64,000 nt of DNA from positions 930,001 through 994,000 of the forward strand of contig NZ_CP036402.1 of NCBI RefSeq assembly GCF_004322855.1. The letters run 5' to 3'. Below the pieces are notes generated by a model. The model saw only the letters and a list, made by a program, of their open reading frames with translations. It was not told the DNA's origin and ran no database searches. Position numbers and translations under genes: made by a program. Shown here in pieces: positions 33,252 through 57,018 of this stretch. The DNA is from Egibacter rhizosphaerae (GTDB lineage: Bacteria > Actinomycetota > Nitriliruptoria > Euzebyales > Egibacteraceae). Within the stretch, counting starts at the first letter, position 1. Each line of letters begins with the position of its first letter.

Positions 33252-36200
33252 GTGAGCGTCGAGGTCGATGCCGCGGCAGCGCGTCAGCGGGTGTCGAGCC
33301 GCCTGGATGCCTTCGCGCTGCGCGACGAGGTCGTCAGGGAGTACCGCTCCTATGTGGAGGGGTTCATCAACATCGCCGACGAGCGGGTCCGCGACGTCGT
33401 CGAGGAGGCCCTCTCGTCGGAGCGGCTGTGGCCCGACCCGTGGGTGCAGATCAACCCGAAGTTCTCCCCTGGCGCGTCGGTGGCCGACCTCGTCGCCGAC
33501 GGGACGCTCGACGAGGCTTGCGAGCAGCTGTTCGCCCGCGAGACCTCGAATGGGGGCCGCGAGCCGTTTCAGCTGTACCGACACCAGGTGGAGGGCATTC
33601 GCGCGGCTGCCGCGGGCGACCACTTCGTGATGACGACGGGGACGGGGTCGGGCAAGTCGCTGACCTACATGGTCCCCGCCGTCGACCGCGTGCTGCGCGA
33701 GGGCTCGGGTCGGGGCATCCGCGCGATCGTCGTGTATCCGATGAATGCGTTGGCCAACAGTCAGCTTCAGGAGCTGGAGAAGTTCCTGCCGTACGGCAAC
33801 CTCGCCGGCCGTCTGGACGAGCAGGGGCGGCTGGACACCTCGGCGCCCGCGAGCCCGGTGACGTTCGCGCGCTACACGGGGCAGGAGCCGCGCAACGTCA
33901 AGAACGCCATCATCGAGCATCCGCCGGACATCCTGCTTACCAACTACGTGATGCTGGAGTTGATCCTCTCGCGGGTATGGGACCGCCGGCTCGTCGGCCA
34001 CGCCAGCGACCTCGCGTTCCTCGTCCTCGACGAGCTGCACACCTACCGGGGCCGCCAGGGCGCTGACGTGGCGCTGCTGCTGCGCCGCCTCGCGGAGGCG
34101 ACCGGGGCCGAGGGCGTCCAGTACGTGGGAACGTCGGCGACGATGGCCTCCGGCGGGTCGCCGGCGGATCAGCGGGCCGCGGTGGCTGATGTCGCCTCAA
34201 CGCTGTTCGGCGGGACCGTCGGTGCCGAGCGAGTGATCGGCGAGACGCTGGAGCGCACCACCAACGAGCACGCTGCCGACCCGACCGCCGCCGACGTCGA
34301 CGGATTCCGCCCACCCGCCACCTTCGACGAGCTGGCTGGCCACCCGCTGTCGGCGTGGGTCGAGTCGCAGGTCGGGGTGGCGCGCAGCAGCGAGGGCCCG
34401 CTGGTTCGCGCGCAACCGCACCAGCTGCCCGGGCTGGCCGCTCGGCTGGCGCAGGAGACCGGCGCGGAGGCTGGCGCGTGCGCGGAGGCGTTGCGCGAGC
34501 TGATCCTGGCCGGCGACCGGCTGATGGATCCGAGCACGGACCGACCGGCGTTCGCGTTCCGATTGCACCAGTTCGTCTCGCGCGGCTCGTCGGTGCTGGC
34601 GACGCTGCAGGGCGAGGCGGCGCGCCGCCTGACGATGGAGGCGCAGCAGTACGACCCCGAGTCGGACCGCACCCGTCGGTTCTTCCCGCTGGCGTTCTGC
34701 CGCGAGTGCGGGCAGGACTACTACCCGGTAGAGCGCGTCGAGGTCGACGGGCAGGTGCGCTACCACCCCCGCGACGTCGGCGACGGCCAGGGCGAGCACG
34801 GCGGCACGCTCGGGTTTCTGCACGTGTCGACGCGGGATCCGTGGCCGTCGCATTCCGAGGCCGAGGTCGTCGAGCGGGTACCCGACGACTGGGTCGAGGA
34901 GGGCCCCGACGGCGGCCGGCGGGTGGAGCGCCGCCGCGCCGCCTTCCTGCCGCAGCCGGTACGCGTCGACGGGCTCGGCTGGGAACGCAACGTCGAGGGC
35001 GAGGCGGCGCACTTCGTGCCGCGACCGTTCCGGTTCTGCCTGGCGTGCGGGATCAGCTACGGGCCGCACACGATGCAATCGGATCTCGCCAAGCTCGGGT
35101 CGCTGGGCATCGAGGGCCGGTCGACGGCGACGACGATGCTGACGCTGGCGAGTCTGCGGCATCTGCGCAGCCTCGGCGAGGTCGAGGTGCCCGCGAAGCT
35201 GCTGAACTTCACCGACAACCGCCAGGACGCGTCGCTGCAGTCGGGCCATTTCAACGACTTCGTCCAGGTGGGGCTGCTGCGCTCGGCGATCTACCAAACC
35301 GTGCGCGAGGCCGGCGCGCGGGGGGTCGGCTCGCAGGACATCGAGCAGCGCGTCCACGACCAACTCGGTCTCGACTTCGCCGACTACGCCCAGACCCCCG
35401 ACGCCTCGTACGGGCGGCGCCGCGCCATCGAGGAAGCGTTCCGCGCGGTGCTGCGCTACCGGATCTTCCACGACCTGCGTGGTGGCTGGCGGATCACCGC
35501 CCCGAATCTCGAGAACGTCGGGCTGCTACGCGTCGACTACGTCGATCTGCCCGAGCTCGCCGCCGACGACGAGCTGTGGGCCCGCCCGGACCTGTCGGCG
35601 GATGGCACGGCGACGGTGCTGACCAGCGCGACCGCGTCCCAGCGCGAAGAGGTCGGCCGGGTGCTGCTGGACTGGCTGCGGCGCGACCTGGCGATCCACG
35701 CTGACGCGCTCGACCCGCGGCAGCAGGAGACACTGGCCAGCAGAACGTTCGACACGCTGCTGGACCCGTGGCGCGTCGACGACCGCGAGAAGCTGGCGAG
35801 CTGGACCGCGGTCGTCGCCCGTCCACGCATCAAGCGTGCCAAGGGCGTGAAGGATCCCGACCCCGCCGAGTGGAAGCACGCCACCCCGGCCTCGGCGTTC
35901 GGCCGCTGGCTGGGTCGCCACCCGTTCGATGGACGGCTCTCCCAGGACGAGGTCGGCGCGGCGATCGAGCACCTGCTCGGGGTGCTGGAGCACGCCGGCC
36001 TGCTCGTCGCCGCCGGCCAGGCCGCCGACGGCGCGACGCTGTACCGCGTCGCCGCGTCGCAGATGCGCTGGACCCCCGGCGACGGCGCTCCGCAGCGCGA
36101 CCGCCTGCGGGTGCCTCGGGCGCCGGAGGCGAGCAAGTCCGCCAACGAGTTCTTCCAGCGCTTCTACGCCGCGACCGCCGACGCGCTCGCGGGGATCCGC

Positions 36201-38762
36201 GCCGCCGAGCACACCGCCCAGGTGCCCGCGGCCGAGCGTGAGGAACGCGAGCAGCAGTTCCGCGACGACCCGCCGCGCCTGGATGCCCTGTTCTGCTCCC
36301 CGACGATGGAGCTGGGCATCGACATCGCGAACCTCAACGTCGTCGGCCTGCGCAACGTGCCACCGACGCCCGCGAACTACGCGCAGCGGTCGGGGCGCGC
36401 GGGCCGTTCCGGGCAGGCGGCGTTCGTGTTCACCTACTGCTCCACGGGGTCGGCGCACGACCAGTTCTACTTCCAGAAGCCCTGGCAGATGGTCGCCGGC
36501 CACGTCGCCCCGCCGCGCATCGACCTCGCCAACGAGGACCTGGTCCAGTCGCACGTCCAGGCGATCCTGCTGGGCGCCAGCGACGCCAACCTCGACCGCT
36601 CGATGGGCGAGGTGCTCGACATCGACGACGAGCCCACCCCACCCGCCGTTGGGGTCGACGCCGAAATCGACGCGAAGCTGCGCAGCCCCACCGCCCGCGG
36701 GCAGGCCAAGCAGACCGCCGCGCGCGTCCTCGCCCGCGTCGACGACCTCGACCAGGCCACCTGGTGGGACGACGCCTGGGTCGACCGGGTCGTTGACGGG
36801 GCCGCGGATGCGTTCGCCGCCGCCACGCAGCGGTGGGCGAACCTGTACCAAGCCGCGATGGCCCAGATCCGTCAACAGCACCGGATCGCCAACGACCGCG
36901 GCCGCACGAAGCACGAGCGGGACCAGGCGTTGCGGGCCTACCGCACCGCGCGGCAGCAGGTCGACCTGTTGCTGGCCGAGGAGCACGGCAGCTCGTATAC
37001 CTCCGACTTCTACTCCTACCGCTACTTCGCCGCCGAGGGGTTCCTGCCCGGCTACTCGTTCCCGCGGCTGCCGCTGTCGGCCTACCTCCCCGGCCGGGGA
37101 CGCAGCAGCGAGGACGCCGAGATGCTCCAGCGTCCCCGGTTCGTCGCCGTCTCCGAGTTCGGCCCGCAAACCACGATCTACCACGACGGCAGCATCTACC
37201 GGGTGGTGCGCGCGATGCTGCCCGTCGACGCCGACACCATCCGCGACGACGGGGAGGCGCAGCTGCTCGCCGACGGGGCGATGTGCCGAACGTGCGGGCA
37301 CTTGCACCGCCCCGAGCGCGAGGACGCGCTGCTGCCCGACCTGTGCGTGAACTGCGGCACGCGGCTGGCCGAAGGGTTCCACTGGCACAACCTGTTCCGC
37401 ATGACCTCGGTGGCCACCCGCCGGGTGGAGCGGATCAACAGCAACGAGGAGGAGCGCAACCGGCAGGGCTACGAGCTGCGCACCGGGTTCAGCTTCGCTC
37501 GCCGCGGCGACCGGCTCGACCGCACCGCCGCCCGCGCCGAGGCCGCCGATGGGCAGCCGCTGCTCGAACTGGTCTACGGGCACACCGCGACGCTCACGCG
37601 CCTGAACCTCGGGTGGCGCCGCCGCAAGGCCGAAGAGGGCCACGGGTTCTGGCTCAATGTCGAGGACGGCCGATGGGCCTCCAAGCCCGAGCCCGATGCC
37701 ACCGTCGACAATGACGGTGATGGCGCCGCGCGCGCGGACGACGACCCGACCGGGCAGCCGATCACCAAGGTCGTCCCGTTCGTCGAGGACCGCCGCAACA
37801 CGCTCGTTGTCCGCCCCGACCCGGCGCTACTCGCGACCGCCGCCGACGAAGATGAGTACACCGAGCCGGAGCAGCGCGGCCGCGCCTCGTTGGTCGCCAC
37901 CCTGCAGGCCGCGCTCGGCACCGCGAGCCAGGAGCTGTACCAGCTCGAGGACGCCGAGCTCGCCGGCGAGCCGCTGCCCTCGGAGGACCCGCGCGAGCGC
38001 GACGCGTTCCTGCTGTACGAGGCCGCCGAAGGCGGGGCGGGGGTGCTGCGGCTGCTCGTCGACCCCGAACGGCCCGACGCGCTCGCCGAGTTGGCCCGCA
38101 CCGCGCTCGAGCGCATGCACTACCAACCCGACCCCGACGCCTCGGACGGATGGCGCGACGTGCGCCGCGCTCCGCACCGTCACTCCGACTGCGACGCGGC
38201 GTGCTACGACTGCCTGCTGTCCTACACCAACCAGCGCGACCACGAGCTGCTCGACCGCAGCGACGCGCACGGCGCGAAGTCCGCGCTCATCGCGCTCGCC
38301 AACGCCCGTGTCGTCGTCACCGACACCGGCGCCGCACCCCCATCCGGAAGCGACGGCGCCGACATCGAACTGGCCGCCGAGGACCCCGCAAGCTACGACT
38401 GGCAGCCCCTGTACAACGGCACCTCCTCCCAGCTCGAGCGCGACTGGCTCGACCTGCTGCGGGAGCGCGGCCACCGGCCGCCAACGATGGGCCAGCGCCT
38501 GGTCGAGGCTGCCGAGTGCATGCCCGACTTCATCTACGAGCCCGACGCGGGCAAGCCCACCGCAGTGTTCATCGACGGGCCCCACCACGACGGCGCCGAC
38601 CAGCAGGCCCGCGACCGCCGCGACACCGAGAACCTCGAGGACGTCGGCTACCGCGTCGTGCGGTTCCCCGCCCACCCCGGCGAGGCGTGGGAGACCACCC
38701 GGCAGCGGTGGACCGACACCCTCGACGTCCACGAGCACGTGTTCGGAAGGCCCCACGCATGA
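33252..38762 (+). CDS. Giant DEAD/DEAH helicase with DUF1998/MZB region and Vsr-like C-terminal nuclease domain
   Basis: The 1,836-aa protein has Walker [10 protein letters not shown] (128-136), motif II DELH (260-263), motif III TSATM (294-298) and motif [14 protein letters not shown]. Zinc pairs occur at [25 protein letters not shown] and CVNCG. Near the end comes [20 protein letters not shown], the DUF1998/MZB cluster. The last ~110 residues ([30 protein letters not shown]) look like a Vsr/DUF559-type nuclease fold. Size and layout resemble DruE of Druantia; DISARM DrmA/DrmB divides similar parts. GTG 33252 follows GGAGG. Its stop overlaps the next gene's start. Probable role: DNA translocation and cleavage in phage defence. 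Confidence 0.85.
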
Positions 38763-41656
38763 CCGCCACTGACACCGCCAGCGAGCCGCGCGAGTTTCCC
38801 GTCGGTTCGCTGGTCTCCGCCCGCGGCCGCGAGTGGGTGGTGCAGAGTGGCTCCACCGACCAGCTGCTGGTACTGCGCCCCATCGCCGGCGCCGACAACG
38901 AACCCGTCGGCGTGCTACCCGACGTGGAACGCGTCGAGCCCGCCCAGTTCCCCGCTCCCACCCTCGACGACCTCGGCAGCGACCGCTCCGCGCGGCTGCT
39001 GCGCGACGCGGTCCGCTTCGGCGTCGCCGACGTTCCCGGCCCGTTCCGCTCGTTCGGCCGTCTCGCGGTCACCCCCCGCGCCTATCAGCTCGTCCCGCTG
39101 ATGATGGCGCTGCGCCTGGACGAGGCGCCCGACGAGCGCGCCCACCCCGCCGCGCGGCTGCTGATCTCCGACGACGTCGGCGTCGGCAAGACCATCGAGG
39201 CCGGCCTCATCGCCGCCGAGCTGCTGGCAAGCGGCGCCGCCAACGGGCTGTCGGTGTTGTGTCCACCGCATCTGGCTGATCAGTGGACCAGCGAGCTGGC
39301 CGAGAAGTTCCACTTGCACGCCACCCCGGTGCTGGCCTCCACCGCTGCAAAGCTCGAACGCGACTTGCGCTACGGCGAGTCGCTGTTCGACCGCCACCCC
39401 GTCACCGTCGTCTCGCTCGACTACGTCAAGTCGCGACGCCGCCGAGACGACTACATCCAAACGGCCCCCGACCTGCTCATCGTCGACGAGGCGCACCTGT
39501 GCGCCAAGGACCCCGCCAACACGAGCAAGCACCTGCGTCACGAACTGCTCGAAGGCCTTGCGGCGGACCCGCGGCGCCACCTCGTGCTCGTGACCGCCAC
39601 GCCGCACTCAGGCAAGGAGGGCGCGTTCCGAAGCCTCGTCGGGCTGCTGCACCCCCAGCTGGCAGACGTCGACCCCGAGGCGGACCTCACCGGCGACCAG
39701 CGCGCCCTCTTGGCGCGCCACTTCATCGCCCGCAAGCGTCACGACGTCCGCTACGGCTACGGCGCCGACACGCCGTTCCCCGAACGCGAGGACCTCACCG
39801 ACCCGCACGGGCTCTGGCGACCCACCAGCGGCCAGGAGTCGCTGACCGAGGACGTCATCGCGTGGGCCAAGGGCGAGCTGCACCAGGCACGCGAGCGCGG
39901 GCAGCGCGACTGGCGAGTGCGCTGGTGGTCGGTGCTCGGGCTGCTGCGCGCGCTGGCGTCCTCCCCCGCCGCTGCCGCGGAGACGCTACGCAACCGCGCC
40001 GGCACCGCCGAGCTGGCCGCCGAGGCGACCGTCGACGACGTCGACGAGGCCGGCCGGCAGACCACACTCGACCTCGACGCCGTGGACGTCACTGCCGACG
40101 CTGAACTCGACATCGGCGCGCAGGTCCGCAACGACGCCGAGCTGCTGCGCGGTTTCGCCGACCGCGCCGACGAGCTCGCCGGACCCAAGGGAGACGCCAA
40201 GCTCGCCCGCGCGGTCGAGCTCGCCCGCGAACTCGTCGACGACGGGTATCACCCCATCCTTTTCTGCCGCTTCATCCACACCGCCCACTACCTCGCCGAG
40301 CACCTCGACCGACGGCTCAAGGGCGTGACCGTCGCCGCGGTCACCGGCGACACGCCATCGGATGAGCGCGAACGCGACGTCCACGAACTCGCCGGCCACC
40401 AGCCACGCATCCTCGTCGCCACCGACTGCCTCGCCGAGGGACTGAACCTACAGCGCTGGTTCTCCGCGGTGGTGCACTACGACCTGCCCTGGTCACCCAC
40501 GCGGCTGGAGCAGCGCGAGGGACGCGTCGACCGCTACGGGCAAACCGCCCCGAGAGTGCGGGTAGCGGCGCTGCACGGCGAGGACGTCGTCATCGACGAC
40601 CTCATCCTCGACGTGCTACTGCGAAAGCACCGCACCATCCTCGACCGGCTCGGCATCGCCATCCCCATCCCCGGCTCGTCCGAGGAAGTCATCGAAGAAG
40701 CCGCCGAGCGGCTGCTCGCCCAACCCTCCTGGAGTCAGCAGCAGCTCCTCGACGACGGCGCCTACCAGCAGGTCCGCGACGACATCGACCAACGCTGGGA
40801 GGACGCCGCCGACCGCGAGCAGCGCTCCCGCAGCAAGTTCGCCCAGCACGCCATCGACCCCAGCGAAGCCGTCGCCCAGCTCGACGCCGCCCAAGCCGCC
40901 GCCGGCGAGCCCGACGACCTCGCCCGATTCCTCGCCACCGCGGTCACCGCGCTCGACGGACACGCTCACCGCGACGGCGACCGGCTCACCCTCACCCTCA
41001 CCGGGCTTCCCACTCAGCTGCGCGACGAGCTCGCCGACGCGCTCCCCGACACCCAGCTGCCCGACCACATCGAGGCCAGCATCAACGGCGCGGCGCCGGC
41101 GGGCACCATCGAGCTGGTCCGCACCCATCCCTTGATAGGCACCGTCGCGCAGTACATCGTCGACGCGGCCATCGACCGCTACGAGCACGCCCCCGCCTCG
41201 CGGCTCGGGGCCATCGCCACCGACACCGTCGACACGCGCACCGTGCTCGCTACCGTCCGGTTCCGCCACGACCTGGCCACCACCCGCCGCGGCGACACCC
41301 GCACCGTGCTCGTCGAGGACGTCGCCACCATCCCGCTGCGCCGCCACGGCCCGGTCGACGACGTCGACCCCGAGCAGCTCGCCGACGCCGAACCCACCGT
41401 GAACCTGCCCGACCCCGACCGCCGCGAGGACGCCGCCTGGGCGCTCGACTGTCTCGACGGCGAGTGGCGGGAGGCGCTTGACGAGCTCGCCGACCAGCGC
41501 GCCGAGGAGCTGCTCACCGCCCACCGGCGCGTGCGCCAGGGCTTCGCCGGCGGCCGCGAGGCCGGCTTCGGGCGCTCCGCCACCCGCGCCCACCCCGACC
41601 CCGACATCGTCAGCCTGCACGTCCTGCTACCCGACCCCCGCCGGAGCGACCGATGA
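38759..41656 (+). CDS. SNF2-family helicase, DrmD-like
   Basis: The 965-aa product contains [12 protein letters not shown] with Walker A at 138-145, DEAH at 243-246, [13 protein letters not shown], and the C-terminal helicase line [18 protein letters not shown] then [12 protein letters not shown]. This is a complete SNF2/RapA-type motor of the sort named DrmD in DISARM. It starts at ATG 38759, overlapping the giant helicase stop by four bases, and its own stop overlaps the methyltransferase start by four. The three genes are therefore one translationally coupled operon. Expected role: ATP-driven movement on DNA with its partners. Confidence 0.85.
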
Positions 41657-44600
41657 GTAGCCGCACCACCGGAGAGTTCGGCACCATCGTCACCGTCGGG
41701 GGGCTGTGGGGCGGGTCGCTGCTCGCGGTGCTCCGCGACGAGCCCAGCGAGCTACCCGGCACCAAACCTGAGGCCTACGACCTGCCCGCGGCGGCAGACC
41801 TGCGCACCCCCATGCGGTCGGCGTGGACGCTGCTCAAGGCCGCGTGGGTCGACTTCACAGCCCACCGTGAGCTGCGCACCAGCGAGCACGGCACCGAGCA
41901 CTACGGCTCCGATGACTTCACTCGCGACCGGTGGCTGCGCCACCTGCTCGACCAACTCGGCTACCACCAACCCGACCCGGTGCCCGGCGGGCTCGCCGTC
42001 GACGACGCCGACCCCGACGACGAGCGCGACCGCTACCCCATCACCCACCTGTGGAGCGACCGCGTCCCGCTGCACCTGCTGCCCGCTGGCGTGCCGCTCG
42101 ACCGCACCACCCCCGGAGTCGCCGGCGCCGTGCGGCAGTCGCCGCACTCCACGCTGCAGGACTACCTCAACCGCACCAGCCGCCACCTCTGGGGCATCGT
42201 CACCAACGGACTGACCCTGCGGCTGCTGCGCAACAACGCCGCGCTCACCAGGCAGGCCTACGTCGAGTTCGACCTCGCCGCGATGCTCGGCGACGAGAAC
42301 TACCCCGACTTCGCGGTCCTGTGGGCCGCGCTGCACGCCAGCCGTTTCACCGGCCCCAGCCCCGCCGACTGCTACGCCGAGCAGTGGCAGTCCTACGCCG
42401 CCCAGACCGGCGTGCGCGCCCTCGACGAGCTCCGCCGGGGCGTGGAGGAGGCCATCACCGAGCTCGGCCAGGGCGCCATCGAGCACCCCGACAACCACGC
42501 GCTGCGCCAGCGCCTCGCCGACGGCGATCTCGACAGCACCGACCTGTACCGCCAGCTGCTGTATGTCGCCTACCGCCACGTGTTCCTCTTCGCCGTCGAG
42601 GACCGCGGCCTGCTCCATCCACCCGACGCCGACCCGGACGCCGTCGCCGCCTACCGCGACTACTACTCGACCGCGGTGTGGCGCGAGAAGGCGCGCCGCC
42701 ATACCGGCGGGCGCCACCCCGACGCGTGGGAAGCCCACAAGACCGTCACTGCTGCGCTCGGCCGCTCTGCGGGCCTGTCCGCGCTCGCGCTGCCGCCGCT
42801 GCTCGGCGACCTGTGGGATCCCGCCTCCACGCCCGACCTCGACGACGCGACGATCACCAACCGTCGCTACCTCGCCGCGCTGCGCCACCTCGCCTGGGTC
42901 CGCCGCGAAGGGACCACCCACCGGGTCGACTACCGCAACATGGGCGCCGAGGAGCTCGGCGCGGTGTACGAGGCGCTGCTCGAGCTCACCCCTACCGCTT
43001 CGGCCTCCGCGCGCACGTTCACCTTTGCCCACACCCCCGGGCACGCCCGCAAGACCACCGGCAGCTACTACACCCCCACTTCGCTGATCACCCGCGTCCT
43101 CGACGACGCCCTCGACCCCGTCGTCACCCGCACTATCGACGGCCGCGCCGGCGATGAGGCCGCCGCAGCGCTCCTCGACCTCACCGTTTGCGACCCGGCG
43201 ATGGGCTCGGCGCACTTCCTCGTCGCTGCCGCCCACCGGCTGGCCAAGCACGTCGCGGCCCACCGCACCGGTAACCCCGAACCCGACCCCACGGCGTACC
43301 GCGACGCGCTCCGCGACGTCGTCAGCCGCTGCATCCACGGCGTCGACGTCAACCCCATGGCCGTCGACCTCGCCAAGATGGCCCTGTGGCTCGAATGCCA
43401 CGTGCCTGGCAAGCCGCTGACCTTCCTCGACCACCACCTCAAGGCCGGCAACGCCGTCCTCGGCGTCGGCTTCGACCCCAGTATCGTCGACTGGCACCCC
43501 GGCGCCTCCGACCCCCGCGGGATCCCCGACGCGGCCTTCAAGGTGCTGCACAGCGACGTCCGCGCCGCAGCAAACAAGCTCAAAGCCGCGAACAAGCGCC
43601 GCCGCGAAGGCCAGCTCACCCTCGATCTCGCCGGGGCCGCCAGCGGCGACCCGACCGCTGAACTCGCCGGCGACGCTTCCCGCATCGCCGCCCTGCCCGA
43701 CGACGATCCCGACGCGCTCGCCGAGAAGCAGCGCATCCACGCCACGCTCACCGAATCCGAAGCCCTGCGACGCGCAAGGCTGCGCTGCGACGCCTGGTTC
43801 GCCACTTGGACCACCCCCAAGACTTCCACCCAAGCCGCCGCCGACGACCAACCCTTCGACGTCTACTACGACACCCACCACGGCGACCTACCCGCCGCCA
43901 GCCGCCCCGGCGTCCAACGGGTCCAGGGCCAGGCGGAGCAGCACGGCTTCTTCCACTGGCACCTCGCTTTCCCCCACATCGCTCAAAACGGCGGCTTCGA
44001 CGTCTTGCTCGGCAACCCCCCGTGGGAACGCGTGAAGGTCCAACAGCGGGAGTGGTTTGCCGCCCACGGCCGCGACGACATCGCCGACGCGAAGAACGCC
44101 GCCGCACGCAACCGCATGATCAACGCTCTGCGCGCCTCCGACGATCCCGTCGACCAGACGCTCGCCGAGGAGTGGGACGCCTCCCTTCGCGCCTCCAGCG
44201 CGCACTCCGAGCTGCTCCGCCAGTCCGGCCGGTTCCCCTTGGGCGGCGTCGGCGACGTCAACCTCTACGCCGTGTTCGCTGACCACTTCCTCCACGCCCA
44301 CAATCCCGGGGGCGCTGCCGGCTTCCTCAGTCCTACCGGGCTTGCCACCGGCGCGACCTACGCGCCGTTCTTCGCCCATCTCGTGGAAGCCCGGCGACTG
44401 GCCTCCTTCTGGTCGATCTGGAACCACGACCGGCTGTTTCCCGAAGTCAACGATCGCGTCACCTTCGCCCTCGTCACCCTTGTCGGAAGCCATCATCCCG
44501 TCGACAAGATCGGCTTCACCGGCCACGTATGGCAAGCCAGCCAGATCGACGACCCCGAGCGGCGCTACAACCTCACGCCTGAGGACATCGCCGCGATCAA

Positions 44601-45762
44601 CCCCAACACCAAGACTGCGCCGCTGTTCCGCCACGCCCGCGACGCTGAGATCACTGCCACCATCCACCGCAACGCCGGCGTCCTCGTCAACGACACCGCT
44701 TCTCCCGAGGACCCCGCGCACAACCCCTGGCGTGTCGAGCTCATGTCGATGTTCCACATGGCCAACGACTCACAGCTATTCCACGATCAGGAGACAGCGG
44801 AGGCTTCCGGCGCGCAGCTGGACGGCAACCAGCTGACCTGGCCCGACGGGAACCGGGCGTTGCCGCTGTACGAGGGCAAGCTGATCTGGTTCTACGACCA
44901 CCGCGCCGGCACCTACGAAGGCCAGACCGAGAAGCAGAAGCGCGTCAACTGGATCCCCGCCGTCAGCAGTGAAGCCAAGGCCGACCCGACCTTCGCGACG
45001 CTACCCGGCTACTGGGTCGACCAAGCCCACGTCGACGAACGGCTCACAGGCCGGTGGGGCCGTGACTGGTTCATCGGGTGTCGCGCAATCGCCAGAGCGA
45101 CGGACGAGCGGACACTCATTTGCAGCGCCCTTCCTCGTTATGCCATGAGCAGCCTAGTACTGCTACTCCCTCAAACCCTTCCAAAGCATCTGGCCACTTT
45201 GCTGGCTGGTCTTAGTAGCTTGGCGTGCGATTATGTGGCTCGCAGTGCAGTAGACGCCAACATGTCCCTATTCGTAATAAAGCAGCTCCCCCTCGGCATC
45301 GACCCCTGGACGCCACTGCCATGGGGCGAACGGCTCAATCACTTCACCGCACCGCGAGTAGCTGAGCTCACCTACACCGCCTGGGACCTCCAAGCTTGGG
45401 CCACCGACATCGGCTACCCCGGTGCGCCCTTCCGCTGGCACGACTCGCGCCGGGAGCTGCTACGTGCCGAGCTAGACGCCGCGTTCTTCCACGTCTACGG
45501 CCTCGGCCGCGACGACGTCGAGTGGGTCCTCGAATCGTTCGAGTCACTCGCCGGCAAGGAACGCAAGCCACCAGAGCGAGGCGGTTACGGCGAGTTCCGC
45601 ACCAAGCGGCTCGTCCTCGAGCGCTACGACGCCATCACTGCGGCGAGCCGACGCGGATCCGAGTACATGACGCCCTTAGATCCGCCTCCGGCAGATGAAG
45701 CCATACGTCACGACGCCGGAGGAGCCGCAGGCGCTCCCCGCCTCGCTTCCGAAGGCCTCTGA
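41653..45762 (+). CDS. Large adenine-specific DNA methyltransferase (DrmMI / Eco57I-like)
   Basis: The 1,369-aa protein has [18 protein letters not shown], motif I-like [14 protein letters not shown] (D514-P-A-M-G518), [20 protein letters not shown] and the catalytic NPPW at 788-791. These are marks of N6-adenine methyltransferases of the Eco57I/type IIG kind. The C-terminal third resembles a target-recognition region ([39 protein letters not shown]). It overlaps the SNF2 gene by ATGA. It probably marks host DNA so that the helicase-nuclease partners ignore it. Bases about 45,075-45,290 have distinctly lower GC and rarer codons than the rest, hinting at a swapped specificity segment. Confidence 0.85.
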
Positions 45763-45797
45763 CACCTCGGGGCGTCCGCTCCGTGCGGCGCAGCAGG

Positions 45798-46550: not shown

Positions 46551-47655
46551 CCCTGACGCACTCTCCTCAACAAGGCCGTGAGGTCAGTCGCGATGCGTTC
46601 AGCGTCGTGCGTGAGCGCCTGCCGGTGCCGTCGAGCGGGTGAGAGCATCACCGCCGAGTCGGCCCCACCACCAGTGATCGACATCGTTGCCGCGTTCGGG
46701 CTCGCTTGCTGCTCAGCCCTGGTCCGCCACGGCAGATACCCGGAGCCCAGCATCCGTGCGGCGACGACGACGTCGGTGAGCCGGTGAACCGGATCGATCC
46801 TGTCGAGAACCGCACCGACGAAGCGGACAGCACGCAGCACGGCATCGAGCACATCCTCTTCGACGAGGGCAGGCAGGACGCCACCGTGCTCACGCGTCGC
46901 TTGGATAGCCCGTTGGCTGACCAGGACGCTGCCGCTTCGTCAACGGCGACCGAAGCCGTCGGCTGCTCGAGTCGGAGCGTGTGCCCGCGTGCGTGCGCCT
47001 GCGTGCCCTCAGCCGCGTCGAGCACGGGGTGCGCCCCGAAGAGTGCCTCCCGCTGGAGGTCGCGAGCCAGGGTCGGATCCTCAAGCTCGGCGGGACGAAC
47101 GACTTGCTGCTCGGGACCGCCGGCCACTGCCACGCTCATGACGGGCTGACCGGTGCTTCCGCGCTCCCCCGACAACAGCTCGTGCACTCGTGCGATCAGT
47201 TGGCCCTCGTCGACAGGTCCAGCCGAGGTCGCGAGCTCATGCTCGTGCAGCGCCCTGGTCACGGCCTTCTTCAGCTCGTCCGTACTCGAATACGCCCCCC
47301 GGAAGTGGCCAGCAGTCCACGCTTGCACCTCGCGCAGGAACTCCTCCTGGGCCGGGTCGCGCTCGACGTCGGACTCGACGAAGACGAGCACCGGCCTGCG
47401 CTCTCGAGCCTCGCGGTACTCCTCGTGAGTCGCAGAAAGACCAGACGCCTGCGGTGCGCCGTAGTCGCTACCCAGGAGCAGCACGACCACGTCGCTCTGA
47501 CGGGCTGCTTCGAGGCACGCCTGCTGCGGGGTTCCAGGCGTCGCCGGGAAGTCCTCGGCCCTGACGACGCGATGCCCCAGCGTCGCAACCGCATCTGCCG
47601 CAGCGTCACGGTAGGCCTCGTAGCCACCCACGACGGAACTGATAAACACGTCCAT
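46547..47655 (-). pseudogene. DUF4062 domain protein, frameshifted
   Basis: From ATG 47655 the frame reads MDVFISSVVGGYEAYRDAAA, LGHRVVRAEDFPATPG, VVVLLLGSDYGAPQ and SATHEEYREARERRPVLVF, a DUF4062 domain of about 150 residues. Around 46,895-46,935 the sensible reading changes frame: the first frame turns Ser/Arg-rich and ends at 46648, while another gives [20 protein letters not shown], then VLRAVRFVGAVLDRIDPVHR and a stop at 46547. One indel would restore a protein of about 370 aa. This could be decay, phase variation or a sequencing error. The restored stop overlaps the start of the next gene, supporting the joined reading. Confidence 0.65.
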
Positions 47656-48296
47656 GGGCGTAGCATGCCGCGACCCACGGTCTCTCCTCCAGGACCCGCC
47701 AGCACACCAGGGACCGGATTGCGGTGTGATGGAGTCCAAGGCCCTGACCAGGACTAACACTGGTCCAGACCCACGAAACCCCTGGTCACAGCGCTGTCAG
47801 ATGCCGTAGCTCATCACACGTCAATCCGGTCCCTGCAGCACACGTCGAGCGCTTCGAGCTGGTCGGGAGTGGTGGGACGGGCGGGCTCGTCAAGGTCTCG
47901 CAACGCGATGAGTCCTACCTGGTCACCGGCGACCTCAGCTTCGCCTCCGATGGCGTTGCCAGGGTTGGGGCGCGGTGCGTCTGTCACCCAACCGCAGCCC
48001 GACGGGGTTCGACCAGCCGCTCGATGAGCCGACGACTGCGCGACCGCGTGCGGCCACAGCGGCCCGACGAGACGAGAGCCGCAAACGCCCACATCGGCGA
48101 GCGACCAGCTACTGGTAACGCCGCCGGCGCTCGCCACTTGCCGAACCTTTGCCAACCATGCGCTAGCCAGCGCGGCGGGCAGACCGGTGCTCGACGGGTC
48201 CACACGGGATAAGATGCGTTCAGGAAATGTGAAGGCATCGTCCAGAAGAGGGCAGCAACGGGGCCAAACAGGCCCCGGATCTACTGGCCCGCCCTT
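47656..48296. other. Gene-free region ending in a long hairpin
   Basis: No coding frame is supported. At the right edge, CCAGAAGAGGGC (48242-48253) pairs with GCCCTTCTGG (48291-48300), enclosing GGGGCC-AAACA-GGCCCC (48260-48276). The hairpin abuts the helicase fragment. It could be a terminator or the folded end of a mobile unit. Confidence 0.5.
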
Positions 48297-49067: not shown

Positions 49068-49295
49068 GAATGCCTCCTCGGGCGTCGGTGGCGCCCTTCG
49101 CGATTCCCGATCGAGCCTCGCCGGGCACGCCGCGGGCTACCCCGATCGAGGCGGCCGGGATGCCGGTGCGTTCGTCGATGATGGGCGACGGGCCGTTCGG
49201 TGCAAACCGGTGCGTTGCTCGCTCCGTGCTCCCCCTGCCCGTTTCGCCCAGCCACTAGCCTGTGGGCGCGAGCGTTCGACCCGGAAGGGGCTTGT

Positions 49296-52130
49296 ATGGC
49301 CGTGGCGAGGTGGCGGAGGGTCGATCTCCACGCGCACACGCCGTTCGATCACAGCCGCCGGTGGGGCGACGGCGCGAGGAAGGAACGCGACAAGGGGTTG
49401 GGGACCGTCGAGGGCCAAGCTCGGGCCTGGCTGGATCAGTGCGCCGACGCTGGACTGGACATCGTGGCGGTCACCGACCACCACATGATCGAGGGGTTCG
49501 ACCATGTCACGACCCATCTGCAGTCGTGGCATGCGGAGACGGGCCATTCGCTCGTGGTCCTGCCGGGAGTGGAGCTCACCGTCGACGGATGCCACTTCCT
49601 CGTGGTCGGCGACCCCGGTGAGCGGGACCGCATCTCGCAGCTGATCGGGCACGCCTTCCAGAACCGCAACCCGTTCCGCAGCGACGGGACTCCCGAACTG
49701 GCCTCGATCGGCATCCGGGACCTCGCCCTCTTCATCCAGGAGGCGGTGGACTCCGGCGGGAGCCTGCTCGGACTGCCGGCGCACATCGACAAGGGCAAGG
49801 GCCTCAGCGAAGAGCTGAGCGGTCTCCTGCGCCAGCACGCCTTCGCGCACCGGGCTTGGTCGGGATTCCAGGTGCGGGGCGAGGACTTCGACCAGAGCAA
49901 GGACCTGCTGCGCCTTTGGGCCGCGGCCGCGCTGTTCGGGCGTCCTCCCGGGGCCCTGAGCGACTCCCAAGCGCAACAGTTCGAGGCATTCGTGACGCGC
50001 AACGAGACGCGTGGCTCCTGGCCACTCGTCGACGCCAGCGACCCGACCAACCTCGACGAGCTCGGCGCGGTCCACACGTGGATGAAGATGAGCGCGACAG
50101 GCGTCGAGGGCATCCGCCAGGCGCTGCTCGACCCCGAGTCGCGGCTGCGCCGCCACCAGGACCCACCGCCACGGCCCCCGGAGACCTGGATCGAGCGCAT
50201 CGAGATCGAGGGGGTGGGGGTCGAGGGGCCGAGCGCGGTCGCGGCCGGCCTCGACGTGGAGTTGTCGCCGTCCCTGAACGCACTCATCGGTGGGCGCGGG
50301 ACCGGCAAGTCCACGATCATCGAGCTGCTGCGCTGGGCCCTGGACCGCGATCGCCTCGACGACCTCCCGCGTGAGGACAGCGAGGTCGGGCGACGCGTGA
50401 AGGGCTTTCTGGAAGACGTGGTCACCGCCGACACCCGCGTGCGGCTCGTCCTCCGCTGCGACGACCGGCCCGTGGAGGTCGTCCGCACCCGGGACGGGTG
50501 CGAGGCTCGGTGGGCGGACACCGACGACCCGTCCGCGGTCGCCGACGTGCGCGCCCTCGTCGAGCCGCGCATCCTGAGCCAACGGCAGATCAACGAGATC
50601 GCTGCGGGCGACGAGGCCATCCGACGAGAGATCGATCACGTGGTTGGGGACGAGCTCCGCGACCTCGTCGCGCGCCGTCGCGACCTGGTGCGACGGCTGG
50701 AGCAGCTTCAGGAGCAGCGACGCGACCTGACCCAGCGCCTCGCCGAGCGCACGACGGTCGAGACCGAGATCGAGCGTTTGCAGGGACAGGTCGCCGCCAT
50801 CGAGCAGGAGGCGGACAGCCCCACCCTCGCGACGTACCGGCAGTGCCAGCGCCAGGAGCGGTGGCTGACCGACTTGCGCGAGGCGATCGAGCAGGCTGGC
50901 GAGGCCGTCCCGGCGGACCCGTTGCTCAACGAGCAGTGGCCATCCGCCCCTCCCGACGGCCCCGCGACCGAGCCGTTGTCCGAGTTGGCCCAGAGAGCCG
51001 CGGAGCGCCGCGCCAGCATCGAGGAGGCACGGCGCGAGCTCGTGCAGCGCATCGACGGACTCCGAGAGCTCGTCACCGACGTACAAGAGGGGCCGTTCGC
51101 GGAGCTCAAGAACCCCTTGGAGGTGCAGTACCGCGAGGTGGTGGCCCGCCTGGAGGAGCAGGGGCTGGAACTCGGCCAGCTCGATGCGCTACACGCGAAG
51201 CTCGCCGTCCAGCGGCGCAAGGCGGAGGGCTTGCGCGAACTGCCGCAGCGCCTGGAGGAGTTGGAGGCAGAGCTCACCGAGACGTGGGAGAAGCTCCTCG
51301 CCCTCCACGTCGAGCGCGGCGAGCTGCGCCGGGCTATCGCCCAGCGGTTGCAGGACGCGGGCGCCGACATCCGCTTGCGCACTCTCCCATTCGGCGATGA
51401 GGAAGAGCCGGTGGCGCAGCGTGACCGATGGTTCGGCGGGACGGGCATGCGGGGACGTGACTGGGAGAACCTGGTGGCCTGGGTCCACCATGGCGACGGC
51501 CACGACGACGAGGGCTCAGATCCCGAAGTGCCCGCGAGGCGGTGGCGGCGTCTCGTCGAGGCGCTGCGGGCCGACGCCGCGCAGCTGCGCGCCGGCGCAA
51601 CCACGGCTGAACACGTGCGCGCGCTCAGCGACGGGGAACTGACGGGGAACGTCGAGGGGGCGCTGGCGAAGGTCGAGCCGGACCGCTTCGACGACATGGA
51701 GCGTTTCCTGCCCGAGGATCATGTCACCGCCCTGTTCCGCGACGGGTCGGGCGAGTTCCGCCCGATCCGGCAAGCCTCGCTCGGGCAGCAGAGCACCGCG
51801 GTGCTCTCGTTGCTCCTCTCGGTGGGCTCGGGGCCGTTGCTGCTCGACCAGCCCGAGGACGACCTGGACAACCGCTACATCTATGAGGTCGTGGTGGAAC
51901 TACTGCGTGACCGGAAGCAGGAGCGCCAGATCGTCGCCGCGACCCACAACGCCAACGTCCCGGTCAACGGCGATGCGGAGTGCATCGTCGCCCTGGACGG
52001 CTCGGAGACTGCGGACGGCGGCATGCAGGTGGGCACGCTCGAGCACGAGGGGATGAAGGCCGTGGTGAGCAACATCATGGAAGGCAGTGAGGCCGCGTTC
52101 CGGCTGCGGCGGCAGCGGTACGGGTACTGA
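49296..52130 (+). CDS. PHP domain-AAA ATPase (TrlF-like)
   Basis: The 944-aa protein opens with a PHP phosphoesterase domain (RVDLHAHTPFDHS with H12 and H14; VAVTDHHMIEGFDHV; LPGVELTV) giving a metal-binding His cluster. An SMC/RecF-type ATPase follows: Walker A GGRGTGKS (332-339), a coiled coil ~440-690, signature SLGQQS (828-833), Walker B LLLDQPEDDLDN (D851, E854) and ATHNANVPVNGD. This domain order is that of TrlF-family proteins, thought to act in defence or nucleic-acid processing. ATG 49296 follows GGAAGGGG. A frameshifted AlbA_2 gene starts four bases after its stop and was probably its partner. Confidence 0.85.
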   Translation: MAVARWRRVDLHAHTPFDHSRRWGDGARKERDKGLGTVEGQARAWLDQCADAGLDIVAVTDHHMIEGFDHVTTHLQSWHAETGHSLVVLPGVELTVDGCHFLVVGDPGERDRISQLIGHAFQNRNPFRSDGTPELASIGIRDLALFIQEAVDSGGSLLGLPAHIDKGKGLSEELSGLLRQHAFAHRAWSGFQVRGEDFDQSKDLLRLWAAAALFGRPPGALSDSQAQQFEAFVTRNETRGSWPLVDASDPTNLDELGAVHTWMKMSATGVEGIRQALLDPESRLRRHQDPPPRPPETWIERIEIEGVGVEGPSAVAAGLDVELSPSLNALIGGRGTGKSTIIELLRWALDRDRLDDLPREDSEVGRRVKGFLEDVVTADTRVRLVLRCDDRPVEVVRTRDGCEARWADTDDPSAVADVRALVEPRILSQRQINEIAAGDEAIRREIDHVVGDELRDLVARRRDLVRRLEQLQEQRRDLTQRLAERTTVETEIERLQGQVAAIEQEADSPTLATYRQCQRQERWLTDLREAIEQAGEAVPADPLLNEQWPSAPPDGPATEPLSELAQRAAERRASIEEARRELVQRIDGLRELVTDVQEGPFAELKNPLEVQYREVVARLEEQGLELGQLDALHAKLAVQRRKAEGLRELPQRLEELEAELTETWEKLLALHVERGELRRAIAQRLQDAGADIRLRTLPFGDEEEPVAQRDRWFGGTGMRGRDWENLVAWVHHGDGHDDEGSDPEVPARRWRRLVEALRADAAQLRAGATTAEHVRALSDGELTGNVEGALAKVEPDRFDDMERFLPEDHVTALFRDGSGEFRPIRQASLGQQSTAVLSLLLSVGSGPLLLDQPEDDLDNRYIYEVVVELLRDRKQERQIVAATHNANVPVNGDAECIVALDGSETADGGMQVGTLEHEGMKAVVSNIMEGSEAAFRLRRQRYGY

Positions 52131-52134: not shown

Positions 52135-53344
52135 ATGGAGATCATCGCGACCGTCGAGGAGGTCTCGAACCGGATCCTCGGTGGTGAGGACTCCCAGACG
52201 GAGTTCAAGGCGCCGCGGGTCGAGGGCAGGTCCGTGGTCGGCGAGGGAGCGAGCTCGGAGTCCTTCGCGGGCGAGATGGTCGCGTTCGCCAACGGGGTGG
52301 GTGGCGCGATCCTCGTCGGCGTCGAGGACGATCGCTCCCTCGCAGGCTACGGGGGCCGACGACGCCGAGGCGTCGGGGACTGGGTGGTCGACGTCGCGCG
52401 CAACAACGTCTTGCCGCCGCTGACCCCGGTGCTTGCGCAACGTCCCGCTCGAGGGGCCCGGCGGCGTCTCGTACGTCGTGGTCGTACATGTCGAGCGCGG
52501 CTTGGCCGCACATCGGACCACCGGTGGTCGGTGGTACCGGCGGGTGGGACGCGACAAACGCGACCTCGATGGGTTCGAGATGGAGCGGTTGCTGCACGAG
52601 CGTAGCCTGCACCACGCCTACGACGAGTCGCCCGTTCCCGACGCCTCGTTGGAGGACCTCGACCATGGGATCCTCGAGCGCGTGTTTCCGACGCGGGAGG
52701 AGTCCGACTCGCTGCGAGTTCTGCGCAACAGCCGCGTAGTGGCGGCGGAGGCCCCGACCCGACCGACGATCGCGGGGCTCGTTGCGTTCGGGTCCCAGCC
52801 GGACGCGCACCTGCCTCAAGCGGTGATCCGCGCGGTCGTGTACCGCGGGAGCCAGATGGACGGCGACGTCGTCGACGAGCACGACCTCGACGGGCCGGGG
52901 GGCCAGCAGGTCGATCGCGCGGTGGAGCTGGTGGGACGGCACATGCGACGCGGCTCATCGAAGGACGTGGGCCGTGAGGACCGACCGCAGTTCGACCTCG
53001 GCGCAGTGATGGAAGCGGTCGTCAACGCCGTCGCGCACCGGGACTACGCCGTCGTGGGGTCGCGCATCCGCCTGCTCGAGTTCGACGATCGGCTGGAGAT
53101 CGCCTCGCCGGGCGGATTACCGAACACGCTCGACGTCGAGTCGATGCGCTATCGCCAGTACACGCGCAACCAGCTGCTGGTGACCTTCCTGTCGAAGTTG
53201 ACGACGGCGCAGGGACGCCGCTACATCGAGGAGCGCGGGGAGGGCGTCGAGCGGATCGTCCAGCGCTCGACCGAGCTCTCCGGTCGGGAGCCGGAGTTCC
53301 ACCAGGACGGGCACGAGCTCCGGCTCACGATCTGGGGCGCGTAG
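52135..53344 (+). pseudogene. AlbA_2/Schlafen-like ATP-binding regulator, frameshifted
   Basis: From ATG 52135 the frame encodes an AlbA_2 start: SQTEFKAPRVEGR, then FAGEMVAFANGVGGAILVGV. At about 52,400-52,440 the sense passes to the next frame, which continues RNVPLEGPGGVSYVVVVHVE and later QFDLGAVMEAVVNAVAHRDY, IASPGGLPNT and YIEERGEGVERI, the C-terminal HATPase-like part. A single-base change splits the gene. Joined, it would be about 400 aa, typical of 'ATP-dependent DNA helicase/transcriptional regulator' AlbA_2 proteins. It lies four bases after the TrlF-like gene. Sequencing error cannot be excluded. Confidence 0.75.
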
Positions 53345-53919: not shown

Positions 53920-56331
53920 CTAGCGGGGCGCTGCACGGGCCTTCCCACCAGTCGCTTCGCTCGGATCCTCGTTGAGCCAGCGCTCAAGGCTGTCCACGGA
54001 GAGTTGCAGCCGCCGGCCCACGCGGACCGCTTCGAGGTGGCCGGCGTACATCAGACGCAAGAGTTCGGTCTTGCTCCATCCGCTCAGGCGGACTGCCTCG
54101 GGCAGGGGCACGGAGTTCGCCTTTGCGGTGGGTGCACTCTCGCGCTCGAGGTAGGCGGCGACCGATGCCCGGGTGATGAACTTGGCCCCGCTGCTGTCTG
54201 TCTCGGGGTCGACGACGAGCTCCCCACGGCGCACCCGCAGGTACACGGTGCTGAGCACACACCCGAGCTCCCTGCGGGCTTGCTCGGCGCTCATCGCTCG
54301 ACGGTGCAACTCGGCGACCCGATCGAGCTCGCGCCGCAGGATCGCTTCGGACTCCTCGTCGAGGACCAACCGCTGTCCGCTCCGCGGCAGGTCCAGCTTC
54401 AGTCGCTGCGCCATCTGATAGAGCTGGTGATAGGTTCGGCCCACCTCGTCAGCCAAGTCGTTGAGCGTGCGAGCTCGGTGAAGTTGCTCACGGACCCGGC
54501 GGACCTCGCTGAGGCGCGCGAATCGTTCGGTCTGGCCGAACCGGCCGGGCTCCTCGACCGTGGGCACTCTGCCCTCGCGCATCCACCGCCGCGCCGTGGT
54601 GGGCGCGAGATCCAGTTCCTCGGCCACGCGCTCAGTGCCGCAGAGTGGGTCGTCCTCGCCCTCGTCAGCGTAGGCCCGCGCCAGCACGACCTCGCTGTAC
54701 TCACGTTGGCCTGCCAGTGGGTTGCTGTGGTCGAACTGGGGCCGTTTCGTGGTCGGCACGAGCACCGAGCCGACCTCTTGCACGACGGCGTCATCGAGCT
54801 CGGCGGCCGCGCGCCGGAGCGGCTCCAGTGACGGGTCGCTGAGAACGTAGACGCGTTCGTGGACGTCGGTGCCCGCGCTGTGCCCGGCCAGACGACGGAC
54901 GAGCAGGTCGTCGAGCTCGGAGCCGTGCAGCTGGGTCACGAAGCTCTTGCGCAGGGTGTGAGGCCTCACCCGGACATCGTCGCCGTCGAGGTCAGAGAGG
55001 CCTTCGGCGGCGCCCGCGTTGCGTAACGCCGTGCGGTAGCCCTGCTGGTCGGGCTTCCAGTAGTCCTTCATGCCGGGGATCAGCGGCGCGTCGTAGGCGA
55101 TCTCCCCGGTCGCGGGATCCATGTGGTAGGCCTCGATCACCAGCCGGATCAACCGCATCAGGGTGGTAGGGACCGCCAGCAGGCGGTTTGAGGTCTCGTT
55201 CTTGGCGTCCTTCTTGTGGCGAACGGCGACGACGTCGCCGTGCTCGTCGCGGACCAGGAACGGCCTTCCACCCTGGGCGCCCGCCGCCACGATCCCGTCG
55301 GCTCCACCGTCGACGACATCGCGGACGAAGAAGCCGAAGGCCTCGCTCACGCGCAGCCCGAGGAGCCGCTGCAGCCAGAACACCAGCTGGTACACGGGGT
55401 GCAGATGGGCGGCGATGCGGCGGCACTGCCAAAGCGTGAGGGGCTTGGCCTTGGGCGACGAGCTCCTGGTGCGGGCGGCGGCGTCCCGGGGCGCCATCGG
55501 CTTGAGCCCCTCGGTGGGGTCCGAACGCAGGTAGCCGTTGCTGCGCATGAAGGCCAGGACCCGCTGGAGCACCCACAGCACCGCCGCGGAGGTTGGCTGT
55601 TGGAGTGCCTTGTGCGGTTTCTGGCCAGCGAGGAGGCCGGCCTGCGCGAGGTCGTCGACGGGGATCATGAGCCGCCCCTTCGGGCCGGGCTCAACGTCGG
55701 CATTCGGCAAACGCCCGGCACGCCGAGCGCGCATGACCGTTGACCGGCTCGTGCCCGTGAGCTCGATGGCCCGCTCGACCGTGACCACGGCTCCCTGCTC
55801 GGCGGAGCCGGCATCGGCCTCCGCGGGATCGGGGGATGGCGATGTCGAGGTTGGGCGCTCGGGGGTGCGGCCGGCCAACTGCTTGAGCAGCTGCTTGCAG
55901 TGGGCGCGCGCCTGACTGCCGGGACCGACCTCGAAGTCGCTGGCGCGCCAGCTCGCGAAGAAGGGGACGAGGTGGTTCTCCAGGGACAGCAGGACGTCTT
56001 GAGCGCGGCCTGGGCCGCCGTGCTCGAGCTCCTCGTAGTACTCGGTCCACCATTCGCGCGCCAGCGTCGCGAATAACGGGTCGGTGGTGGTGTCCTCCCC
56101 GTCGCTTGCGCCGCCCTGCGATACCACCGGGCTGCTCGGATGGCGGAAGAGCTCGGGGTCGGGCACGGCCCTGCTGGCGTCGAGCGCCTCGAGGCTCGCC
56201 TGCACCCACCGGCGGCAGTCCTCCTCGCGGGAGAACGACGCGCTGCGCTCCCGCCCGCTCGGCCCGCAGGGGACGGCACCGACCCAGCTGTTGCCCCGCT
56301 GGCGGATCTGACCGGTGCGCTGGCGCCCCAT
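53920..56331 (-). CDS. Extra-long tyrosine recombinase (integrase) with added HTH modules
   Basis: The 803-aa integrase carries the catalytic set: R327 in LLGLRVSEAFGF, H458-x-x-R461 in RPHTLRKSF, H484 in LAGHSAGT and Y495 in HERVYVLSD. Normal integrases are 350-450 aa. Here an excisionase-like HTH (TVERAIELTGTSRSTVMRAR) is inserted at 184-231 between core-binding and catalytic parts. At least two more HTH-like segments follow the catalytic domain, near 575 (ELDLAPTTARRWMREGRV) and at 745-795 (LPEAVRLSGWSKTELLRLMY). It starts in an ATGA overlap with the upstream MerR-like gene and lies 0.7 kb from tRNA-fMet, its likely attachment site. Confidence 0.85.
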   Translation of the reverse strand: MGRQRTGQIRQRGNSWVGAVPCGPSGRERSASFSREEDCRRWVQASLEALDASRAVPDPELFRHPSSPVVSQGGASDGEDTTTDPLFATLAREWWTEYYEELEHGGPGRAQDVLLSLENHLVPFFASWRASDFEVGPGSQARAHCKQLLKQLAGRTPERPTSTSPSPDPAEADAGSAEQGAVVTVERAIELTGTSRSTVMRARRAGRLPNADVEPGPKGRLMIPVDDLAQAGLLAGQKPHKALQQPTSAAVLWVLQRVLAFMRSNGYLRSDPTEGLKPMAPRDAAARTRSSSPKAKPLTLWQCRRIAAHLHPVYQLVFWLQRLLGLRVSEAFGFFVRDVVDGGADGIVAAGAQGGRPFLVRDEHGDVVAVRHKKDAKNETSNRLLAVPTTLMRLIRLVIEAYHMDPATGEIAYDAPLIPGMKDYWKPDQQGYRTALRNAGAAEGLSDLDGDDVRVRPHTLRKSFVTQLHGSELDDLLVRRLAGHSAGTDVHERVYVLSDPSLEPLRRAAAELDDAVVQEVGSVLVPTTKRPQFDHSNPLAGQREYSEVVLARAYADEGEDDPLCGTERVAEELDLAPTTARRWMREGRVPTVEEPGRFGQTERFARLSEVRRVREQLHRARTLNDLADEVGRTYHQLYQMAQRLKLDLPRSGQRLVLDEESEAILRRELDRVAELHRRAMSAEQARRELGCVLSTVYLRVRRGELVVDPETDSSGAKFITRASVAAYLERESAPTAKANSVPLPEAVRLSGWSKTELLRLMYAGHLEAVRVGRRLQLSVDSLERWLNEDPSEATGGKARAAPR

Positions 56332-56693
56332 CAGGCGGCCCGCCCTTCAAGCAGCCGGCGAAGGAACCGCCGGTCCTCGTTGGCGTCGGCCAGGCGCTCC
56401 TCGAGCGCTTCGATCCGAGCCTGGGCTCTGGCGAGCTCCTCGCGCAACTCGCTGTTCTCCCGGCCACTGCGGACCTTGGAGATGGTCTCCTCGGCGGACT
56501 CCGCCTCGCTCGCCGGGTCGTAGTGACCCGCTTCGACGAGGTCGCTCAGGGGGATCTCGCGCGTGGTGGAGCCGGCCCGCCGACGGGCGTGGGGGTACAG
56601 CCCGCGGCCCTCGTCGCGACGAACCGTGTCGTAGCTGCGCCCGACGAGGTCGGCGACCTCGTTGCGGCTGAGCCACCGCTCGTGCTCTTGCAT
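56331..56693 (-). CDS. MerR/excisionase-like HTH protein with coiled coil (candidate directionality factor)
   Basis: ATG 56693 opens MQEHERWLSRNEVADLVGRS then YDTVRRDEGRGLYPHARRR, a MerR-type winged helix. Residues ~75-115 form a coiled coil (ENSELREELARAQARIEALE). At 120 aa it is the size of recombination directionality factors. Its stop overlaps the integrase start (ATGA), so the two are made together. The coupling and fold support a role in excision control; direct evidence is lacking. Confidence 0.65.
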   Translation of the reverse strand: MQEHERWLSRNEVADLVGRSYDTVRRDEGRGLYPHARRRAGSTTREIPLSDLVEAGHYDPASEAESAEETISKVRSGRENSELREELARAQARIEALEERLADANEDRRFLRRLLEGRAA

Positions 56694-56972
56694 GGTGTTC
56701 GGGCCTCCTGCCGCCGCCCCGGTGGCGGTGACAGCAGGACCGGTGAGCGTTGGCGGCCAGGATGCAATCGCCGCCAGCGGTGACACCGCGGACTCCGGGG
56801 TGCCCAGGGCCTGCCCACCCCCGTTGGGATCGCACGGGATGCGAACGCCGGTTCGGCGCGGTTGGCAGGGGGTGTGCTGCCCAGGGCTGCCCTGGGCGCG
56901 CGGTGTCAGAAATCCCGGATCCGGCCCTCTCGATCCGGGAAATCGCGGGCCACCACGGCGTCCGGACACGCA

Positions 56973-56997
56973 GAAAGCCCGCCAGTGGCGGGCTTTC
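56973..56997. terminator. Bidirectional hairpin between HTH gene and tRNA-fMet
   Basis: GAAAGCCCGCC (56973-56983) pairs perfectly with GGCGGGCTTTC (56987-56997) around a 3-base loop. It follows the tRNA 3' end on the minus strand by about 22 bases and probably ends tRNA transcription. Confidence 0.75.
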
Positions 56998-57018
56998 CGG
57001 CGACTGCATCTGCTGTTT

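Follow-up and report, generated by a model that had tools for sequence, protein, structure and literature searches.

A three-gene operon from a defence island of Egibacter rhizosphaerae, very probably a minimal ARMADA Type I anti-phage system

Introduction

ARMADA Type I was first named in a 2025 preprint (Bell et al. 2025; doi 10.1101/2025.09.15.676423, PMC12458937), where it consists, in this order, of a YprA helicase carrying a Vsr-type nuclease at its C-terminus, a BrxHII-like SNF2 protein and a PglX-like methyltransferase. ARMADA is termed there the "missing link" between DISARM and Druantia, the group is placed nearer to Druantia than to DISARM, a BrxA-like domain is given as a mark of the lineage, and cyanobacterial and archaeal members with a reversed gene order are described (Bell et al. 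2025). The phage protection experiments in that work concern the four-gene Type II system of E. coli. All four of its genes are needed, the deletion of any one abolishing protection, and most motif mutations, including those in Walker A and NPPW, have the same effect; the system is non-abortive, in that infected cells survive and remain intact (Bell et al. 2025).

The neighbouring families share parts with ARMADA. In Druantia (types I-III) the giant helicase DruE lies on the same YprA branch as the helicase described below, but it is without an SNF2 or methyltransferase partner, and type III is equipped with DruH and PLD domains. The DruE of that type acts as a helicase-nuclease, loading on 3'-tailed DNA. 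Class 1 DISARM has DrmD-like and DrmMI-like proteins and a DUF1998 module; it splits helicase and DUF1998 between DrmA and DrmB and possesses a PLD nuclease, DrmC. The DrmAB complex recognises DNA structure, and DUF1998 has been proposed as an allosteric relay. PglX and BrxHII of BREX are related to the methyltransferase and the SNF2 helicase, respectively.

We describe here three genes of Egibacter rhizosphaerae which lie inside a defence island and very probably make up an anti-phage operon of the ARMADA Type I kind, reduced to its minimal set of three. The system was described recently and already has its name; the operon is a member that illustrates it well.

Results and Discussion

Organization of the operon

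The window, that is, the whole stretch of DNA that was analysed, comprises 64,000 nucleotides of contig NZ_CP036402.1 (positions 930,001 to 994,000). It contains three co-directional genes, at 33252-38762, 38759-41656 and 41653-45762, all on the plus strand. The genes, and two segments of the first of them, are as follows:

33252..38762, plus strand, GTG start: gene 1, YprA/DruE-like SF2 helicase, probable ARMADA Type I YprA homologue, 1836 aa
34128..35258, plus strand: helicase segment between the GTSAT and DNRQD motifs, helical and then beta-rich with two CxxC pairs
38202..38759, plus strand: helicase segment with the last DUF1998 cysteines (from aa 1651), a linker and the predicted Vsr-type PD-(D/E)xK nuclease
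38759..41656, plus strand: gene 2, SNF2/RapA-type helicase, BrxHII/DrmD/DpdE-like, 965 aa
41653..45762, plus strand: gene 3, PglX/DrmMI-like adenine-specific DNA methyltransferase, 1369 aa

The GTG start of gene 1 at 33252 is preceded by a GGAGG box at about 33241. The ATG of gene 2 at 38759 overlaps the end of gene 1 (GCATGACC), and that of gene 3 at 41653 overlaps the end of gene 2 (CGATGAGT); both junctions are four-base ATGA overlaps, just as an earlier reading of the bare sequence had them. A mechanical ORF list puts the start of gene 2 earlier, at 38150; since its homologues are of 922-964 amino acids, we take 38759 as the start. The window has a G+C content of 69.7%, and the third-position values of genes 1, 2 and 3 (0.93, 0.84 and 0.87) are typical of coding DNA at such a composition. 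The catalytic motifs that were looked for, as predicted from the translations, are intact in all three proteins.

The helicase core of gene 1

The giant protein specified by gene 1 matches the Pfam families DEAD (8e-22), Helicase_C (8e-13) and MZB, the MrfA zinc-binding domain or DUF1998 (3e-6). The last lies at aa 1552-1655 and scores 28.4 bits against a cut-off of 24.2, so that helicase and DUF1998 are joined in a single chain. Its motifs include a Walker A sequence GTGSGKS at aa 130, DELH at 260, GTSAT at 293 and QRSGRAGR at 1045. Cysteine pairs at aa 483, 596, 1345 and 1365 are kept in at least 90% of 14 aligned rows, those of the middle segment being the CxxC pairs C483/C486 and C596/C599. 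Judging by these pairs, the protein would possess zinc-binding modules both in the OB region and in the beta-barrel that lies between its RecA domains. A BrxA-like domain together with a zinc-binding module is expected in the segment after RecA1 (34128..35258). Residues 293-669 were modelled with AlphaFold2 (pLDDT 85); the model gave no confident match in the PDB, the best values being E 0.66 with Foldseek and Z 4.0 with VIA-align, a result of little weight for or against the BrxA-like domain since the fragment cuts through RecA2.

The Vsr-type nuclease tail

The C-terminus of gene 1, at about aa 1724-1836, carries E1729, D1759 and D1775-G..H1779, the residues of a Vsr-type nuclease, all intact. 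With the whole protein as query DUF559 was matched weakly and the Vsr-like tail fell below threshold, and the C-terminal segment alone brought DUF559 exactly to its cut-off. A family scan of 41 relatives gave DUF559 in 35, the MTES_1575 restriction endonuclease in 30 and Vsr in one. The AlphaFold2 model of the tail (pLDDT 83) yielded weak PD-(D/E)xK matches in Foldseek, and VIA-align then resolved the fold. The Vsr-like homing endonuclease I-Bth0305I aligned with a Z of 9.4 (94 residues, 3.0 A) and E. coli Vsr (1vsr) with a Z of 8.2 (97 residues, 25% identity), values to be read knowing that a Z of 7-8 can be reached from a common arrangement alone. We accept the Vsr fold because the top rows are two members of one nuclease family, the whole domain is covered and the catalytic residues are conserved. 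The tail is thus predicted, from its model, to have the Vsr fold and to be an active nuclease.

Of 73 C-termini, the one described here included, 56 keep these residues (D, D-G..H) intact. They are substituted or missing in the other 17, among them several Streptomyces systems and one each from an Agrobacterium, a Sphingomonas and an Acidithiobacillus; of the 17, at least L076, and possibly others, could be a frame error. The loci concerned are:

L014, L016, L022, L041, L047, L054, L060, L064
L074, L075, L077, L085, L093, L097, L098, L099, and L076 as the seventeenth

Since the residues are not intact in 17 of the 73, the nuclease may not be the sole effector in the family. Such non-intact Vsr residues were not seen in the main text of the ARMADA preprint (Bell et al. 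2025).

The SNF2 helicase and the methyltransferase

Gene 2 contains the Pfam domains SNF2 and Helicase_C, with a Walker A motif DVGVGKT near aa 141 and DEAH at 243. The PADLOC model DrmD matches it at 1.5e-69 and the NCBIfam DrmD model at 5e-80, the latter below its own cut-off. Gene 3 matches PADLOC DrmMI (7e-68) and Pfam Eco57I (2e-12) and N6_Mtase (1e-5); it has the motif DPAMGSAHF at aa 514 and NPPW at 788. Genes 2 and 3 are the counterparts of ArmA and ArmB, respectively, of the E. coli ARMADA Type II system.

Relatives, gene order and phylogeny

The helicase is present in four of 66 genomes of the same class, that of E. rhizosphaerae among them, and shares 35-45% identity, along almost the whole of its length, with bacterial ARMADA I members. 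A scan of species genomes produced 572 relatives, the best 80 of which were kept. Where at least 5.5 kb follows the helicase gene, the order helicase-SNF2-methyltransferase is found in 56 of 58 relatives from these best 80, a proportion which should not be taken as unbiased for the family as a whole because the 80 are the closest matches to a query alignment mostly built from such systems. Plasmid relatives with this order occur in Nocardioides, Rhodococcus (two), Deinococcus (two species), Roseomonas, Agrobacterium, Sphingomonas and Paraburkholderia. In Nostoc and Haloquadratum the helicase gene comes last (SNF2-methyltransferase-YprA, the reversed order); an E. coli plasmid has the Type II arrangement; and among the other loci is a metagenome-assembled genome with the SNF2 and methyltransferase genes upstream on the opposite strand.

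A tree of 17 helicases joins the protein to those of the Nocardioides and Rhodococcus plasmids with an SH-aLRT of 97, within the group that shares its gene order. E. coli ARMADA II (one row only) and Druantia III (two rows only) are placed outside, on long branches. On the Nocardioides JS614 plasmid (L007, 1-4599) the ARMADA Type I operon follows drmA and drmB of a DISARM system at a distance of a few kb, so that two YprA-based systems adjoin there.

Assignment to ARMADA Type I

The locus agrees with ARMADA Type I in gene content, gene order, the Vsr tail and the phylogeny of the helicase, and no difference was found that would distinguish it from that type. It is without the variable fourth gene that is common directly 3' in relatives. 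The sequence-only reading had described the three genes as a DruE-sized DEAD/DUF1998 helicase with a Vsr-like tail, a DrmD-like SNF2 helicase and a DrmMI-like methyltransferase, and had seen in them a compact restriction-like operon whose giant helicase supplies both DUF1998 and nuclease. Part by part it was right: Pfam, PADLOC, the family scans of relatives and the structural model bear out the first protein, and PADLOC and Pfam agree on the other two. The novelty that it implied, that of an unnamed hybrid of Druantia and DISARM, is not supported, since this gene set, in this order and with such a Vsr tail, had been published as ARMADA Type I; the reading had itself allowed that a named subtype with these three genes might exist. 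It had likewise allowed for a gene order conserved nowhere else, and the order recurs in the relatives described above.

The PADLOC run that the same reading had proposed returns DruE, DpdE/DrmD and DrmMI for genes 1 to 3, because the 2023 library predates the ARMADA name. A reader of sequence alone can therefore recover a defence system which PADLOC 2023 mislabels as a mixture of Druantia, DISARM and Dpd.

Each of these labels corresponds to another reading of the locus. That it is a Druantia system, defined by the giant DruE-like helicase with the other two genes as accessories, accords with the DruE models being the top PADLOC matches of gene 1 (3e-93). Those matches fall in separate pieces across the helicase core; the protein shares about 22% identity with DruE of Druantia III, compared with 35-45% for bacterial ARMADA I; both Druantia III rows lie outside its group in the tree; the tail is of the Vsr type as against the PLD type of Druantia III; and the neighbouring proteins scanned include no DruH, while an SNF2 protein and a methyltransferase adjoin the helicase. 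We consider this reading very improbable, and give no better chance to a class 1 DISARM variant in which DrmA and DrmB were fused and DrmC lost. Such a variant would account for the shared SNF2 protein (DrmD) and methyltransferase (DrmMI) and for the union in one chain of what DrmA and DrmB split. The DrmA models, however, match gene 1 over a short helicase stretch at 1.9e-13, against 3e-93 for DruE, and Bell et al. (2025) set the group on the Druantia side. Moreover, no drmA, drmB or drmC gene was found beside the operon, and the sole other DrmB-family match that the genome offers, 0.9 Mb distant, does not reach the cut-off.

Least probable of all, to the point of being negligible, is that gene 2 belongs to a Dpd system for 7-deazapurine in DNA. 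Its best PADLOC score is indeed for a DpdE model, PDLC02853, at 4.7e-197 over the full length, but the curated NCBIfam DpdE model reaches 176.7 bits against a cut-off of 500, and the scan of neighbouring proteins revealed neither DpdA nor a gene for deazaguanine synthesis. The PADLOC model was most likely built from ARMADA-type SNF2 proteins. PDLC02853, which matches an ARMADA SNF2 protein in full where NCBIfam DpdE fails, is probably an ARMADA-type SNF2 model mislabelled as Dpd.

ARMADA Type II (E. coli NCTC 12900 and ATCC 8739) has a helicase, SNF2 protein and methyltransferase homologous to those of the operon described here, the helicase of an E. coli plasmid Type II system being about 21% identical. 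Its order differs, being SNF2-methyltransferase-YprA, and it has in addition a GajB-like helicase that bears a RelE-like domain. Type II is ruled out by the gene order in the window, and no GajB/RelE-like gene follows. As regards BREX, neither PglZ nor BrxC occurs among the neighbouring proteins scanned, and the methyltransferase models for BREX give scores far short of their cut-offs.

Variable fourth genes

In many relatives an extra gene, from one of several unrelated families, lies directly 3' of the methyltransferase gene. These include LmuB/DUF2326-like SMC-like ATPases (nine loci), McrB-like AAA_5 GTPases (six loci, one similarity cluster), GajB-like UvrD helicases (two loci), an HNH protein (one locus) and others. 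A fourth gene of the McrB-like, LmuB/DUF2326-like, GajB-like or HNH kind follows in these loci:

L007, L014, L016, L017, L026, L042, L044, L054, L060
L064, L066, L068, L069, L072, L081, L083, L086, L101

No homologue of these genes was found in the window, and the next plus-strand ORF after the operon, at 45783, has no family match. The association with McrBC was reported earlier in the literature; that relatives have alternative fourth genes was not seen in the main text of the preprint, which does not name DUF2326 or LmuB (Bell et al. 2025). Because the Vsr residues, intact here, are eroded in roughly one in four of the sampled relatives, and the fourth genes differ, it is conceivable, though on balance we think it unlikely, that ARMADA Type I is a platform with an exchangeable cutting step, of which the operon described here would be the self-sufficient form with the Vsr nuclease as its sole effector.

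Proposed mechanism

By analogy with its relatives the operon would function in phage defence, and the steps proposed here for Type I are inferences of the same kind. Loading on 3' single-stranded DNA has been shown for DruE and MrfA, and the YprA helicase would likewise load where single-stranded 3' regions of the invading DNA are exposed, and translocate or unwind; it may in this way recognise unusual DNA ends or replication intermediates of the incoming phage. The DUF1998 canopy would couple DNA binding to activation, whereupon the Vsr-type nuclease of the helicase would nick or cut the DNA. The SNF2 motor and the methyltransferase might form one restriction-modification-like module which surveys the DNA and marks it, sparing that of the host, that is, a marking or licensing module. 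Since the methyltransferase motif is essential in Type II, the enzyme of that type takes part in defence and is not merely an antidote. Because the experiments in the preprint deal with the four-gene Type II, an intact Type I operon of minimal size offers a useful way of asking whether three genes suffice and which nuclease cuts.

Genomic surroundings

A TrlF-family AAA-like ATPase, related to the anti-phage protein Ppl, is specified 3.4 kb downstream of the operon, which is flanked by genes for two DUF4062 proteins. Further on, a tyrosine recombinase-like protein adjoins a 212-aa frame and a tRNA-Met. The features are:

628-1881, minus strand: group II intron reverse transcriptase (RVT_1 and GIIM)
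8047-9804, minus strand: PDC-S39-like DUF4209 protein, candidate island gene
11811-14663, plus strand: DUF4365 protein, candidate island gene
15002-16165, plus strand: DUF4062 protein
46648-47760, minus strand: DUF4062 protein
49200-52130, plus strand: TrlF-family AAA-like ATPase (NCBIfam NF045780, 457 bits against a cut-off of 350)
52433-53344, plus strand: RecG-C-terminal-like HATPase_c_4 protein with matches to Argonaute-associated models, candidate island gene
53920-57095, minus strand: tyrosine recombinase-like protein, 803 aa, with several helix-turn-helix domains

These surroundings suggest a mobile defence island. A search of the genome for an attachment-site copy of the 3' end of the tRNA-Met (20 bases, at most two mismatches) returned only the tRNA itself, and integration of the island at this tRNA is not demonstrated because there is no second copy. 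Elsewhere in the same genome a separate frame of 840 aa specifies an MZB-bearing helicase, which is probably a YprA of the repair type.
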